Shown: in pieces, positions 3,660 to 63,902 of the stretch
How positions within the stretch are numbered: position 1 is the stretch's first letter
How the letters are laid out: each line of letters begins with the position of its first letter
DNA from: Xiphydria camelus
Lineage: Eukaryota > Arthropoda > Insecta > Hymenoptera > Xiphydriidae
DNA: 64,000 nt
Reading direction: 5' to 3'
Assembly (NCBI GenBank): GCA_963678675.1
Contig: OY783191.1
Coordinates: 19,905,111 to 19,969,110 of the forward strand
Program-made: the position numbers and the translations under genes
Notes under the pieces: model-generated
Database searches by the model: none
What the model was told of the DNA's origin: nothing
The model's input: the letters and a program-made list of their open reading frames with translations, nothing else

Positions 3660-4472
3660 GTCAGACCAATCACAGGGCGTTCGCGCTACGCGTCATATTT
3701 AAAGGGACAAGCCGATTTTAGAAACCTCAACAGTTCGATAACGAATTAATATTTTGAAAAATGGTTTGGGGGACGTGTACCTTACACATATACGCATCTA
3801 TTCTGAGCAAAACCATTCCATTTAATAATTGAGCGCAAGACCCCTATTGTAAGCAATATAAAATAAGAGTTTCATCACTGACAGGTGCCAATACAGCTAA
3901 ACTTCTCCTACCCACCACGACCAATCAACGATGACACTCATCGTCTATACTTCCATAAAATCTTATATGTTATACTTGTTATATTGCAGGTCCAAGTCTG
4001 GACCCTGTAGGCGATTTACCATAGTAGACTCTAAACTACGCTATTAGTCGTCAACCGGAAAATGCTGTATGATTGGTTATAAAGGCTTACAGTATCAGAT
4101 ACAACCGCTTCTAGAGAAAATCCTTGAATCCCCTCTAACACGGCGGAAGACGTATCCTCGGGCATGCGCGCATGTGGGAAAAGTGTCAAGTATCAAAATT
4201 CGATGATTTTGTCTAGCAACGATTATTGGGTATTGTAAGACATTACAATCAATCAAATGTCCCCCGTAGATTGGCAACCAATAGTGTACAGTTCAGAGTT
4301 TACTACGGTATAATGTCCATTGTGTCCCGTTCTCGAAAACACTCGGCATACATATGCTCGATGCTAACTTTGTATACCAATGCTATAAAAAGATAAATTG
4401 TACTTGTATTATTCACTAGCTATGCTTCTGAACACAACCTGTCTATATTGGCAGTCCTCCCATTCGCATTGG
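3660..4472. other. No recognised gene
   Basis: No motif or repeat that I can name. A stretch near 3998-4060 weakly resembles 6408-6460 on the far side of the next element (shared TAGGCGAT...CTAAACTAC). Confidence 0.5.
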
Positions 4473-4812
4473 TAGGGGAGAGGGTGGAGCATTCGGCTAC
4501 TTTTTACATTAATTTGCATAACTTATACCTAGATAAATATATCAACTTGTTTTGTGTCGCCTCATTAGTTATAGGGTGTAACTATTCAACCTCTCACGAA
4601 TGGTGGCTTTGGCACGTTGAAATATTCTAAAAATGTTTTTAACACTATAGTTACCGTATATTGGCCGAAACCTCCCTTACACGGGGAGGTTTCGTCTTGA
4701 GTCAATGAATACCAGCAGAAGTTTCGGCTCGAAACAAAACACGTGATAATGAAGATAAATATATTTGGTAAATCGTTGACAGGGACAAAATATAGACAGG
4801 AACATCCAGAGA

Positions 4813-5067
4813 GGGTGACATTTTGAAAACTTGCCACCTTAATATCTCAGAAAGTTACGGACATTTTCTAAAAAAAAATACGGTTTCGGCAGTGGAGAGG
4901 GGGAACCAAAGTGACATAATCGGAGACGCACCCCCTCCAACCCCCTATCGGCGTCTCCGATTATGTCACTTTGGTTCCCCCTCTCCACTGCCGAAACCGT
5001 ATTTTTTTTTAGAAAATGTCCGTAACTTTCTGAGATATTAAGGTGGCAAGTTTTCAAAATGTCACCC
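4813..5067. repeat. Near-perfect palindrome (MITE arm family)
   Basis: Arms of about 120 bases are almost perfectly self-complementary around a short centre near 4930-4950. The same arm sequence (GGTTTCGGCAGTGGAGAGGG) occurs at 16380-16500 and inverted at 20400-20573, so this is one family of foldback repeat. Confidence 0.85.
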
Positions 5068-5545
5068 TGTATGTATACATATAGAAGGTAGGTGATGAGC
5101 CGTGTACATTTGTTAATATTGTTCAGTGGGGTACACTTCCGATGAAATTGGAAAAATTATATGATATTAAGGACATTCCAAAGAAAAAAATGAGAAAAGA
5201 ATTGGAGGTGTTCCGATTAATTATAACATAAAAAAATTGTTTAAAAATTTCATCATTTTTTTTTGGCGAATTTTAAAAAAAAATTCAAGATATTTTTTTC
5301 TTGAAATTGGCTCTTCAGAAAGAGTAACATATATTTTTTTTCATGAAAATCGGTCAAGCCGTTCCGGAGAAAAAGCTGTTTTTCAATTTTACTTCCCCCC
5401 CTCATAACTCCCCCCCCTTATAGCGATTAGGTATCTAAAAATTTAGGAGATTTAGTTTCTCATAGATGCCTATCGATCGTATAAATTTGGTACTGATACA
5501 CGTGGGGGCAGATTTCACATGCTTATTCCGCTAGGCCCTTTGTAA

Positions 5546-5980
5546 TTAAAACGATATGATGAAAGAGTCCTGGCTGTAGGTACCGGTTCTATTCGGGATG
5601 CTTAATTTTCCCACAATATCATGTTTGGGAACGTCTTGTTTTACTTCCACAATCGGGAAATTAAAATTGTTTGTTTTTCCTCGTCTCCGGAGAAATGATA
5701 TTGTCAAGTCTTCTCCTATACCGACAATTTTACCAATATAATAGCAGTCTTCCTTTTTCTTCGAAGTTTTGAGGACTTTCACAAGGACAAACTCATGTAA
5801 ATTAAATGAAGAACCGTCATTTCCGATTATCTCCAACGAAGAAAAAGATTCATCTGAGGAATCTGCATTCTTGACTGAAATCTCGGAATCACTGGACGAG
5901 GAGTCTTGTAGAGCTTTCCTCTTCGTTCCACCTACCACAACCTTCTTTTTTGCTGGCCGAATGCTCCCCGTGGGGACTAA
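5546..5980 (-). pseudogene. Transposase C-terminal exon remnant (pogo/DDE type)
   Basis: Open minus-strand frame of about 130 codons. It opens with a basic stretch (RPAKKK...GGTKRKAL), has an acidic serine-rich middle, and ends with a small domain reading EFVLVKV, YYIGKIVGIGEDL, SFLRRRGK and DIVGKL. That tail resembles the C-terminal module found in insect pogo-like DDE transposon proteins (family recognition, not a search). A possible splice acceptor (TTTAG) sits just upstream near 5981. No catalytic core is present, so it is the last exon of a gutted element, the one bounded at 4475-6347. Confidence 0.55.
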
Positions 5981-6349
5981 ATTAATTTAATTATATATTT
6001 CGAAACTTTCAAAAAGATTTTAAGGTAAGGTTCTTACATTTAGGTTTCCCTTATAAATAATAGTAAATTTGTGAACCAAAACTATCAGACTAAAATTAGA
6101 AATTATGACAAAATTTTCGTAACGCTAAATAGTCAAATACTTACTTTGAATATCACTTTAAATCACATTTAATTTTGCACAAAGTCTGAATAAACCAAGC
6201 AACATCAGCCAATGAAAATTAGTTGAAAATGACCGTATCCGACGTACAAATGGAATAACAAGCTACAGAGGCGGGTAGTTTAAATAAAAACACAAATATT
6301 AGTACTGACCTAAACCTCCACCTGGCCGAATGGTCCACCCTCTCCCCTA

Positions 6350-7325
6350 TGTGTCCATTATAGACAAATTCTGCTGCATACAGGGTGTATTCGAGGAAGT
6401 CTGTCTGACATAGGCGATATGCCGTAGTATATTCTAAACTACATGCTATTGGATTATGACTTAAAAATATTCATCAAATACCTTTGACTATGAACGAATG
6501 TCGCAGTAAAGAATTAAATTAGAGATATCTATTCTTTTTGTTTATTGAGCCATAACAATATACCTGACTATACTTGGACAATAGGCCTAGGCGCCGCACC
6601 TCTGAATTAAATGCTGGAAACGTGTTAATGAAAATTAATCTGCTAGAGATAAAGTGATATCATACGGGCCAAAAAATGGCGCAAATGAGACTATTATATC
6701 TGGCATATGAAATTCATCAGGCTACATGTAAGTACATGTATACTAATAGCACCGATGGTTAAAAGTTAAAATGGAATTAAAATCTGTTATATTGACGTAA
6801 ATTCGATTATTTAAGTACTAATGCAACACTGGAAAGAAAAAGTTATAGTTATAGCAGCACGATAATCGAGTTCAGAATAGTAAGTAATCGCTTTAGAGTG
6901 GGATTTCGTTGAAATGCAAAAATACGTGTTCTTTAATTGTGTACCCTCTACAAAATCCAAGTGGTCCGATAAAAATAGAAACGACAATTTTCGTATCACG
7001 GTAAGAAAATTGGTTTTAAAGGGGTAGTTCACCCCCTTCCCTTTCATCCCCATGGGCAGAGGTTAACGTATATTTTCATTACTCGTTATAATGAATAATT
7101 TGTCATGGATCTCATTCCTGTAGGTTCGGTGTTTTTACTTACAACTGCAGAACCATACTGAGCACTGTTGGTCCTGATTTTGGGGGTCGGTTTCACCCCT
7201 TAAAACCTTTTATCGGCCGATAAGAAAAAATACGTATCTCTTAGTTTTTAGTGGACTACAACATGTTACAAGGAGATCAAAATCGGAGGCGGACACCAAC
7301 CTAACACCCCTTGTTAGAAGTAGAA
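6350..7325. other. No recognised gene
   Basis: AT-rich sequence without a recognisable gene. Two opposed motifs near 7020 and 7190 (AGGGGTAGTTCACCCCC and GGTCGGTTTCACCCCTTAAA) look like transposon-derived sequence, but I cannot place the boundaries. Confidence 0.45.
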
Positions 7326-47854: not shown

Positions 47855-48162
47855 AATCAGGAATATGCACCTATTTTTTTTACATTAAAAATGGATTGAG
47901 CACGTAAAAAAAGTTGGGACGTGTTTTTTTATTTTTGTTTCTGACGCGAAATTAAGCCGTAGGAGATTAATAAACTTTGCGCTAAGCTCCGCCCACTTGA
48001 AACGGCCGGTCGAGCGGCACGCCGGGCCGTGACGTCACTATGCACTCTCGGATATCGTATTCGTGTTGACGGCGTCTGCAGAACCGTAAGCGTGTGTTAT
48101 AGTTCTTCGTTTTGAGGACTGTTTAACTGTTTCGAGTACGAAGCTTGTGTTGTGCTGTGAAA

Positions 48163-48292
48163 ATGGACAGTGGATTTGTACAAGGGAAATCTGACAATTT
48201 TTGACGCAAATCGATGCTTTGTCAGTGTTCGCTTTTCTTGGATCAAACCCAGATTTCATTGGAGCAGAAACGCGAAATATTAAAGCAATAAG
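48163..48292 (+). pseudogene. SWIM-gene exon 1, copy 1 (frameshifted)
   Basis: Begins [13 protein letters not shown], then a TGA. The intact copy at 63328-63201 is two bases shorter at this point and continues in frame. The exon end has a perfect donor (AG then GTAAGA). Downstream the intron resembles that of the other copy, but no SWIM exon follows here. So this copy lost the SWIM product. Confidence 0.7.
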
Positions 48293-48921
48293 GTAAGATT
48301 TAAAGATACGGTATGAATAAGTCAGATTGTATACCTCAAAATAAAATAAATAGCAGTCTAGGCAGCTGCCTATATATAATTTGTAAATATACACGGTGTC
48401 GCCTTTTCGATGTACCTACGGAGTTTTGGGAAAAACGTTATAGAAAAAATCCAGTTACACATCCTCGGGGTCGATTTTGAAAAAAATTTAATGCTGTCAA
48501 AATCTCACGGCTAACTAGATCCAGTATTGAGATACAGGGTGTTTTTCATTTTTTGCCATTTCCTTCATGGCCTTATATTTCGATTATTTTTAAAGATAGA
48601 AGAACAGTATAACGGTGATTTTTCGTAGATCTTTATGTAGTTGTTTACAATAATATTTGTTTTTAATACATGATTGGTATTAGATATTTATAAGTGGTAT
48701 TATTTCATTCAATAGATACTACTTAGTTGTTATAAGTACTTAAAATTTTTATAAGTACTCTGCTGTTTTTCAACTATGTTGTTGGTAACTTTCTTTAAAT
48801 TTACGTTATCTTAATGTAAATTTTTGGAAATATACCATTAATAAAATATGTACAATATACAGTACAATACAGTTACAACAATGTCCAAATATAGGTATAT
48901 AACTCTATACCTATAACTTAC

Positions 48922-49232
48922 ATTAAAATGGTCCTCACAACAGTATAGCGAGGTCTTTAGAGAAAGTGGCGGNNNNNNNNNNNNNNNNNNNNNNNNNNNN
49001 NNNNNNNNNNNNNNNNNNNNNNNNNNNNNNNNNNNNNNNNNNNNNNNNNNNNNNNNNNNNNNNNNNNNNNNNNNNNNNNNNNNNNNNNNNNNNNNNNNNN
49101 NNNNNNNNNNNNNNNNNNNNNNNNNNNNNNNNNNNNNNNNNNNNNNNNNNNNNNNNNNNNNNNNNNNNNNNNGTTTGTACATCTCGGCACTGTACAACAT
49201 TTATAAATCCTTCTTCCTTCCTTCTTCGACAT
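48922..49232 (-). CDS. THAP-domain exon (interrupted by the assembly gap)
   Basis: The minus-strand ATG at 49232 opens MSKKEGRRIYKCCTVPRCTN, the N-terminus of a THAP zinc finger (first Cys pair). After the gap the frame resumes as PPLSLKTSLYCCEDHFN, matching the C-x2-H part of THAP, and stops at a perfect donor GTAAGT at 48921. THAP domains bind specific DNA and occur in P-element-type and other transposon proteins. The missing middle is inside the 200-N gap, so its length is unknown. The rest of the protein is not found. Confidence 0.75.
48973..49172. other. Assembly gap (200 N)
   Basis: Exactly 200 N, a conventional placeholder for a gap of unknown size. It falls within a repeat-rich exon. 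Confidence 0.98.
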
Positions 49233-49869
49233 TCTACTATCAAACGTCAAACAAAAATAGTCACAAAAAATAAACAAACTTCCACTTCACTTGTACTCTT
49301 CCGATACGCAAGGCATTGAGAAACATGCTAGAAGGTGCACTGGCGGGCCGGTTTCGTGCATAGTGACGTCACAAGCCAGCGCCTCCCACAACGGAGCATT
49401 TTGAAATACGTCACTGGGAGGCGTGGCCGTGCTACTTTTAAAGTAATGTTTTTGGGGTAGGAGTTTTTCTTATCCACTTTTTACTATTAGTACTGTGTTT
49501 TGAATAACTTTAACTATTATGTCTGCTGTGTTTCATGCATATCAAAATTTCATGCATATTCCTGATTGCGGAACCTAACGGAGATGGCAAAAAAAGCAAT
49601 GAAATAAAAATGTTGTAAAATCAACTTATACTTTAAAATGAACTTAGGTTGTTAATCGTTGATGTCAATCACACGTTTTTTTAAAAAACTAAAAACAATT
49701 AAAATTTCAAGAAAAATATAAGATGCGATTCGGATTTACCCCGATTCCTCTGCGGTAATTGCGAATAGATGTCGTTATTATGTTATACAGTGTTCAATGT
49801 TATCGATAATAACGCCAAGTATCTAGCTAACAATAAGCGTCTAATCCGTTTTAACATATAACCTTTCCA

Positions 49870-60776: not shown

Positions 60777-61387
60777 TGTTAATCACATCGTCGGCGAAGC
60801 GGTTCATTTCGGTGAACATTGGTCGTTAACCCCCTTTCATGCATACATTTTCGGAAATTTAGATTTTCATTAAGAAAATCGACCGTGGGGATCAATAGTG
60901 AATTGAATTCCTGGATAAGCTTGTAATTAAGTTTTCTCTAATTGGCCATCGACTGCATTCGTCATTTCTTTCCTTAAGCCGGCTTGATATTAGCGTTACC
61001 GCGGAAGACGACTTGCTGCGATCTGTCCGATACTTTCTTTCCGAGAATCAGGAATATGCATGAAATTTTAATATGCCTAAAACACAGCAGACATAATAGT
61101 TAGAGTTATTCAAAACACAGTACCACACAATAGTAAAAAATTGATAAAAAAAACTCCTACCCCAAAAACATTACTTTAAAAGTAGCACGGCCACACCTCC
61201 CACAGTGACGTATTTCAAACCGCTCCGTTGTGGGAGGCGCTGGCTCGTGACGTCACTGTGCACGAAACCGGCCCGCCAGTGCAACTCCTAGTCTGTTTCT
61301 CAATGCCTTGCGTATCGGAAGAGTACAAGTGAAGTGGAAGTTTGTTTATTTTTTGTGACTATTTTTGTTTGACGTTTGATAGTAGAA

Positions 61388-61515
61388 TGTCGAAGAAGGA
61401 AGGAAAAAGGATTTATAAATATTGTATAGTTCCGAGATGTACAAACACATCTGTGGCAACACCGGAAAAAATATTCTTTTCCGTTCCAAAAAATCAGGAT
61501 ATCCGGAGATTTTGA
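61388..61515 (+). pseudogene. THAP-domain ORF, truncated
   Basis: Reads MSKKEGKRIYKYCIVPRCTN, TSVATPEKIFFSVPKNQDIR, RF, stop: 42 residues. It is the first half of a THAP zinc finger (C-x4-C then the P-x-K-x-FFxVPK pattern). The second half (C-x2-H), present in copy 1 at 48922, is missing. The break coincides with the 3' end of the opposing SWIM gene, supporting an internal deletion. The full protein would be a DNA-binding component of the element. Confidence 0.8.
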
Positions 61516-61531
61516 GCAAAATATATGTCGG

Positions 61532-63328
61532 TTAAGTATAATGCATGTAAAGTTTTTCCACTTCACTAAAGTTTTCCAAATATTTTCCTAAAACTGAGTC
61601 TTTGCTACTTTGCCCTATTACAGAATATAAAAATGACTGATCGGTTGGAAAGCGTGGTGTTGTTGACAACTTTTTGCTCAGTTCCTTTCCCCGTATAAAT
61701 TTTTTGGACGTTCCGACCTCTGATAACATTGATTTTCGCCAATAATTCGTCACTGATGTAGTCGCAGGTTCTTCACTACGGCGGTGTAGCCACATCAAAA
61801 AAGTAAAATCATGCTTACAACCACCTACGCAAAAAAGGTGAATTAATACTTCATACTTCCATACTACTAAAATACTTCCATACTAGTTCGGTTTAATTAT
61901 TCTTTAACAATCTTACCCAAGGATGCTGCACAACAGTTGCAGTTAACAGATATAATTTGCCTATCCTTCTCATTACATACAGCAACAATTTCGTAAGGGT
62001 GCTTTCGCACTCTGTGTTCAGGAGTAATTTTTCCTTTTACTGTGCATAATGCACCCTCTCTCTTAACTTGCACATAGCCGACAGCGTTATCGCTATATGA
62101 CTCACGAGTGGAACTAAAAAAAATCCAAATAATGGTTTGCTACACATGTACAGTGTGGCGCCTTTTCGATGTATTTACGGGGTTTTGGGATAACTGTTAT
62201 AGTAAGAGAAAATCCTTTTGTATATTCTCGGTACCGATTACGTAGATGCTGATGATAGTTTACCGAGATGCTCATACTTAGCCAAGAATTTGTAACACTC
62301 TGTATACATTTTAGGATACCAATGAAAGGGTATTTTAACACATTGCATGCGGGAAACGTAGTTTAACGTTTTTCGCAATCTGTCACTGGAGCGCGGGTCA
62401 CGTAAACGTACATATTTAGTAGATTTGTGCTATATAAATAATTAATTCTTTTGAAAATAATTTCATTGCATCTCTGAAAGGCTGAATTAATCCAAATATT
62501 CCTAATTTATTTGGTCCTTTTCGTAATTGAATATATCCTACAATTTTTCGCTCTTGTAAAAAATTATATACTAATAAAAACTATTATTACTAAAATTAAT
62601 CCTCTAATTATTACATTAATTATATCATTTATTTAAAAATTTATCTCTATTTGTATAGACGGGTATCGTATAAATTCACGAAAAAACGCCCGATGCACGC
62701 GTAAGTCCGCGACGATATATGCCCGCATGCAATGTGTTAATTTGAAGTCAAATTGTAAATTATATTATATTGAGTATTCCATTTAAAAGAAAAACTCATT
62801 TTCACACCATAACTCAAAAACCAAAAACCCAACAAAAAAATTAAAGTCGGTCATTGGAAACTACTAAAGATCTACGAAAAATCACCGTTATACTGTTCTT
62901 CTATCTTTAAAAATAACCGAAATATAAGGCCTTGAAGGAAATGGCAAAAAATTAAAAACACCCTATATCTCAATACTGGATCTAGTTAGCCGTGAGATTT
63001 TGACAGCATTAAATTTGTTTTCAAAATCGGCCCCGAGGATGTGTAACTGGATTTTTTCTGTAACGTTTTTCCCAAAACTCCGTAGGTACATCGAAAAAGC
63101 GACACCGTGTATATTTACAAATTACATATAGGCAGACTGCTATTTATTTTATTTTGAGGTATACAATCTGACTTATTCATACCGTATCTTTAAATCTGAC
63201 CTTATTGCTTTAATATTTCGCGTTTCTGCTCCAATGAAATCTGGGTTTGATCCAAGAAAAGCGAACACTGACAAAGCATCAATTTGCGGCAAATTGTCAG
63301 ATTTCCCTTGTACAAATCCACTGTCCAT
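61532..63328 (-). CDS. SWIM zinc-finger protein of a transposon, three exons, intact frame
   Basis: Exons 63328-63201, 62113-61917 and 61824-61532 total 618 bases: 205 residues and a stop. Exon 1: [20 protein letters not shown], then [20 protein letters not shown]. Exon 2: [48 protein letters not shown]. Exon 3: [40 protein letters not shown] and onward to KLYMHYT. The C-x-C...C-x-H across the second intron is a SWIM zinc finger (DNA or protein binding). In related insect proteins this part is followed by a YqaJ-type exonuclease domain (family knowledge); here the protein stops first. The exon 1 donor is AG/GTCAGA, weaker than the GTAAGA of copy 1. Intron 1 holds another foldback and a MITE. 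Confidence 0.75.
62148..63112. mobile_element. Foldback element inside SWIM intron 1
   Basis: GTGTGGCGCCTTTTCGATGT at 62154 pairs with the inverted ACATCGAAAAAGCGACACCG near 63088. Half of it is also in copy 1 of the two-gene element (from 48390), so it predates the split of the copies. Confidence 0.65.
62339..62736. mobile_element. TTAA-flanked MITE (piggyBac type)
   Basis: Ends CACATTGCATGCGGG and the inverted CCCGCATGCAATGTG, with TTAA on both sides (62335-62338 and 62737-62740). 398 bases, AT-rich interior, no gene. Absent from copy 1. Confidence 0.8.
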
Positions 63329-63902
63329 TTTCACAGCACAACACAAGCTTCGTACTCGAAATAGTTAAACAGTCCTCAAAACGAAGAACTATAATACACG
63401 CTTACGGTTCTGCAGACGCCGTCAACACGAATGCGATATCCGAGAGTGCATAGCGACGTCACGGCCCGGCGTGCCGCTCGACCGGCCGTTTCAAGTGGGC
63501 GGAGCTTGCGCAAACTTTATTAATTTCTTATGGCTTAATTTCGCGTCAGAAATAAAAATAAAAAAACACGTCCCAACTTTTTTTACGTGCTCAATCCATT
63601 TTTGATGTAAAAAAATAGATGCATATTCCTCATTAACGACCTATGTTCGCCGAAATGAACCGCTTTGCCGATGACGCGATTAATTATAGTCGGCGAGTAA
63701 TTTATGATCGATGTTATTAAGAGGTATGAATCGAACTTCCGAAATTCCGTCCCTCGTGCGACGGAACATTGACGACTTTCTTATAATTTTAAGGTATTCC
63801 TAGCGCTTATGAGCGTATTTTCAATGTGCCACAAGCAGGCCCCCCATAAATTAGTAATTCTACGTAAAAAGTGAATTTTGGTTAATGAAGATTAATACTT
63901 AC

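Follow-up and report, generated by a model that had tools for sequence, protein, structure and literature searches.

The element near the end of the window, the 64,000-nucleotide stretch of Xiphydria camelus DNA analysed here, carries the start of a THAP gene on one strand and a SWIM-like gene on the other, and the question it raises is what kind of enzyme moves it. An earlier note, made from the letters of the window, had proposed a mobile system that is not a standard DDE transposon. Our analysis instead indicates, with a probability of about 95%, that this element, referred to below as E2, is a non-autonomous, internally deleted ISL2EU transposon of the PHIS superfamily, which at that level of confidence settles the question in favour of ISL2EU and against a DDE-free system.

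E2 spans 61049..63631 (2,583 bp) between two proposed AT target duplications, the left one at 61047..61048 with an A preceding it at 61046, and the right one at 63632..63633 with a T next to it at 63634; both are proposed from the A|AT|T target found at the paralogous empty sites of other copies. Its inverted ends carry AATCAGGAATATGCA, exact at 61046-61060 on the plus strand and with one mismatch at 63620-63634 on the minus strand. Within the window alone the end motif, at up to three mismatches, is not above chance (4 found versus a mean of 2.80 in shuffles, 28 of 100 of which reach 4). In the 357-Mb host genome the 15-base end is beyond chance, with 148 exact matches versus none for a reversed control, and the inverted ends described in the earlier note are confirmed. 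The 99 stretches that match the 15-base end in viral contigs are presumed to be chance. Of the 148 end positions, 100 were listed, and these form 33 pairs that face each other at distances of up to 15 kb, 21 of the pairs being 1,500-1,750 bp long. The flanks of E2 also hold a 51-nt inverted repeat (60779-60829 and 63633-63683; 88% complementary), the right arm of which starts where E2 ends, and E2 may have inserted in another repeat.

A genome search for fuller copies, as the earlier note had suggested, was carried out by fetching 20 of the 33 facing pairs. The middle that E2 has lost was retained in one of these, L132 (G000 contig 6; 6,034 bp), where it encodes not one but both of the enzymes that had been considered for it, a YqaJ nuclease and a DDE transposase. 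Using blastn, we found that E2 matches L132 at 501-2624 (95.8%) and 6084-6534 (94.1%), while 3,459 bp of L132 (2625-6083) are absent from E2, the deletion junction lying at 61502..61508 of the window. E2 is thus L132 minus 3,459 bp, and its description as a mobile element with an internal deletion is upheld. L132 has two convergent genes, with the SWIM gene continuing into the YqaJ nuclease and the transposase on the opposite strand, and it is the only one of the 20 fetched pairs in which both a YqaJ region, by tblastn, and a full transposase frame occur. As it stands, L132 has broken frames in both genes, and there is no complete working copy among the 20.

The window contains a further copy of the same transposon, absent from the earlier note. 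This copy, E1, lies at 47858..49564 (47855-49567 with its outer end bases) in the orientation opposite to E2, is interrupted by a 200-base N gap at 48973-49172, and matches the ends of E2 with 95.3% identity over 790 bp at one end and 92.9% over 408 bp at the other. Its version of SWIM exon 1 (48163..48288, plus strand; the end placed by likeness to the E2 exon) has a frame broken after 13 residues, and its THAP start (49173..49232, minus strand) is cut by the N gap. By blastn E1 matches L132 at 501-1281, 5707-6035 and 6140-6534 (94.6-96.2%). Its deletion junction, at approximately 1281 to 5707 of L132, is shared by five of the nine loci that we compared with L132 (L135, L137, L142, L148 and L150), the 10 other fetched loci having been left out of this comparison. 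By these alignments the 1281/5707 deletion class has multiplied, and E2 and the common 1.6-kb copies are deletion derivatives; the usefulness of this locus lies partly in such a multi-copy ISL2EU family, of which one deletion class has been amplified within a single genome. In L142 (G000:C6:11028485-11031025), a 1.5-kb copy is inserted within another copy of the same ISL2EU-type family. The L131 copy contains a 404-residue frame (4019-5233, plus strand) that has no Pfam match; just before it, a frame at 3726-4058 (plus strand) resembles by eye a frame that spans the left flank of L132 (211-678, plus strand), and this region may be another repeated element.

The SWIM-like gene on the minus strand of E2 has three predicted exons, placed by a splice model and by relatives, at 63201..63328, 61917..62113 and 61532..61824; the last, which includes the stop codon, is truncated, the YqaJ part having been deleted. 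With two GT-AG introns of 1,087 and 92 nt removed, the frame stays open for 205 residues, in agreement with the uninterrupted three-exon gene described previously. The junctions then given, 63201-62113 and 61917-61824, hold as a splicing model, with the proviso that the figures denote the last and first bases of exons. Among 142 candidates, 17 relatives of the 205-residue protein were found at E ≤ 0.001 (best E 7.7e-53), in moths, beetles, spiders, a sea spider and a sawfly, and since the longer of these align with it almost to its end, the splicing is supported. The SWIM label rests on a C-x-C...C-x-H pattern, which we take to be a SWIM finger, and on the source names of the relatives; a Pfam scan of the 205 residues gave no SWIM match even at E 10. 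Six relatives were also scanned with Pfam, and YqaJ was found in four (P0004, P0007, P0010 and P0017), as had been claimed for the relatives of this protein; P0003 matched Viral_alk_exo only, and P0005 fell just under the Viral_alk_exo cut-off. In L132, the plus-strand frame 2387-3220 matches Viral_alk_exo (E 1.1e-12) and YqaJ (E 4.3e-9). As SWIM exon 1 is present in 20 of 20 fetched copies, the SWIM gene belongs to the family.

The plus strand of E2 carries, facing this gene as the earlier note had stated, the remnant of the first, THAP-encoding exon of the transposase gene (61387..61515; 42 codons and a stop), in which the match to L132 stops near 61502. The E2 THAP start itself (ATG 61387) is under the Pfam cut-off (E 0.015; 16.5 bits versus 23.9), while the THAP exon passes it in all four other copies scanned (E 2e-8 to 3.2e-8), these having been chosen because they are open, with several of the 15 listed copies broken. 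When the 53-residue THAP remnant was used as the query for homologues, no candidate emerged. On the minus strand of L132, the frame 4002-5483 matches DDE_Tnp_4 (E 4.8e-38) and HTH_Tnp_4 (E 3.5e-10) in Pfam, and the THAP exon lies upstream of it on the same strand, joined by a putative intron with its donor at 5985 and its acceptor at 5484; as it stands, the L132 THAP exon is out of frame. The pairing of THAP with a SWIM/nuclease protein in one element is nonetheless borne out, with the SWIM gene of L132 running into YqaJ and the THAP exon on the opposite strand. The DDE region of L132 has 439 relatives, and among the 120 listed many have THAP with DDE_Tnp_4 and several HTH_Tnp_4 as well, so that all three domains occur within one protein (for example P0022 and P0034). 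Eight relatives were aligned with the L132 transposase and a THAP exon. L132 has the two aspartates and the glutamate of a DDE triad at what we presume to be the triad positions. None of the solved structures searched matched the L132 transposase. The L133 locus has a distant DDE_Tnp_4-like stretch (36% identity, residues 292-418) that looks like part of a different element.

To define the target site, we joined the two flanks of each of 22 copies and looked for matches to them in the fetched loci and the window. Where the copy has AAT...ATT, paralogous empty sites read AATT for L131, L148 and L140, the last over 118 bp only. The empty site of L142 reads AAAT in five paralogues (the window, L131, L133, L136 and L132), in which one base differs, although a 2-bp duplication is still consistent with the length. 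These sites fit an A|AT|T target with a 2-bp AT duplication. The alignment of empty sites proposed earlier succeeded for these four copies but not for E1 or E2, for which nothing in the 22-copy screen extended across the junction. The matches of L134, L144 and L146 fall within their own loci, and the L148 flank gave short matches (59-69 bp) to the window and to L134. Left ends with an A three places before CAGG number 21 in the fetched loci and window, versus none genome-wide with another base at that place, and AAT stands at 43 of 43 ends in the fetched loci and window, loci that were selected by a pattern containing AAT.

We refer to E2 as ISL2EU because that group is described in the literature as having a transposase with THAP, HTH and DDE, a YqaJ second gene and an A|AT|T target. 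In the passages of Han et al. that deal with ISL2EU (PMC4482050), insertion at A|AT|T duplicates AT, most autonomous candidates encode a transposase that combines DDE, HTH and THAP, and YqaJ is carried by a second ORF; those of a second source (PMC9179366) likewise describe elements of two ORFs, with a YqaJ exonuclease and a DDE transposase that has HTH or THAP. The pairing of THAP and YqaJ in one transposon has therefore already been described. In the Xiphydria family the DDE and HTH parts are seen in L132, THAP in the four open copies and all three joined in relatives; the YqaJ ORF is that at 2387-3220 of L132; the duplication is seen at AATT (L131, L140 and L148) or AAAT (L142); and the two-gene layout is the same. 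The family differs in that its ends begin CAGG, whereas in those passages ISL2EU ends usually begin GG, which is a tendency; in that L132 is longer than the mean of ~4,840 bp given there; and in the SWIM-like finger of its YqaJ protein, which these ISL2EU passages do not mention. Database arthropods contain the same two protein families, THAP-HTH_Tnp_4-DDE_Tnp_4 and SWIM-YqaJ, known there from proteins alone, with up to 58% identity in the SWIM part and 62% in the DDE part over the aligned stretches. We file E2's family as a putatively new ISL2EU family by these published features.

A DDE-free system driven by the THAP protein and a SWIM/YqaJ nuclease, as originally proposed, draws on E2 alone, which displays just a THAP start and a SWIM-like gene, and on SWIM relatives that carry YqaJ. 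The middle that E2 lacks encodes HTH_Tnp_4 and DDE_Tnp_4 in L132, and relatives unite THAP, HTH and DDE in a single protein, which leaves this reading with almost no probability and overturns the claim that the element is not a standard DDE transposon. A fuller copy belonging to a known superfamily was the outcome that the earlier note itself had named as contradicting its proposal, and the features of L132 are those of ISL2EU. THAP domains are also found in P, Kolobok and other superfamilies, and the SWIM gene could have been captured by chance in one copy of such an element. Kolobok makes TTAA duplications and P 8-bp ones, neither of which fits empty sites of AATT or AAAT in copies reading AAT...ATT; with SWIM exon 1 in all 20 fetched copies and a transposase that matches DDE_Tnp_4, we regard this alternative as just as improbable.

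Slightly less remote, though still very unlikely, is another PHIS group (Spy, PIF/Harbinger, Pangu or Nuwa) that has acquired a YqaJ gene. PHIS transposases carry the Pfam label DDE_Tnp_4, and the ends of the present element begin CA rather than GG. The passages of PMC4482050 on these groups describe transposases of one DDE type as common to all of them, and Spy shares with our family its superfamily and DDE type. According to the same passages, Spy elements have a single ORF and insert at AAATTT without a duplication, in contrast to the 2-bp duplication at AATT and the two genes found here; Repbase, according to a passage in PMC12730594, also counts Spy under ISL2EU. For the remaining groups they give duplications of TWA (PIF/Harbinger), ANT (Pangu), CWG (NuwaI) and probably TNA (NuwaII), and second proteins of the Myb/SANT type, whereas the empty sites found here fit the duplication of a 2-bp AT, and Pfam, on the given frames, identifies the second protein as YqaJ.

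The DDE transposase of ISL2EU elements works by cut-and-paste, with A|AT|T as the site of insertion. By this family knowledge, the transposase encoded by fuller copies would excise the element and reinsert it at A|AT|T, with the THAP domain probably recognising its ends and the SWIM-YqaJ protein acting as an accessory, perhaps by binding or trimming DNA ends. Since both enzyme domains are absent from E2, it would be mobile only with proteins from a complete copy.

The GASPDG...VEVKCP stretch in L132, of which slightly altered versions occur in P0007, P0010 and P0017, resembles the active-site pattern of acidic residues and a lysine in lambda-exonuclease-like enzymes. We consider it possible, but on this resemblance somewhat doubtful, that the SWIM-YqaJ protein has a nuclease activity on which the DDE transposase depends, in which case ISL2EU would be a two-nuclease transposon. 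Among solved structures, lambda exonuclease is no more than a weak match to P0004 (E 0.12). The SWIM-like finger of the YqaJ accessory is a further useful finding; what this accessory does is a question that the ISL2EU passages of PMC4482050 leave open. Among the listed titles and beginnings of abstracts, outside subscription journals and Repbase, we found no description of a SWIM finger in a YqaJ accessory; the word "swim" in PMC4746887 refers to a LINE branch and a swim bladder virus rather than to a SWIM finger, and PMC10225492, by its title, concerns scallop swimming. The SWIM-YqaJ alignment pattern gave six matches in viral contigs, none of them confirmed, and six in genome contigs, of which one, on a Facklamia contig, was confirmed; with E 5e-4 over 24 residues, this last match was judged to be chance.

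The first intron of the SWIM-YqaJ gene contains a 60-nt inverted repeat (62146-62205 and 63055-63114; 78% complementary) as well as a fragment of mitochondrial ND1 (62416-62580, minus strand; NADHdh E 6.6e-14 in Pfam). The ND1 fragment, which lies at 1558-1719 in L132, also occurs in L131, L140, L133, L136 and the copy around L142, at 86-94% identity, and seems to be a captured piece of mitochondrial DNA that was multiplied by the transposon.
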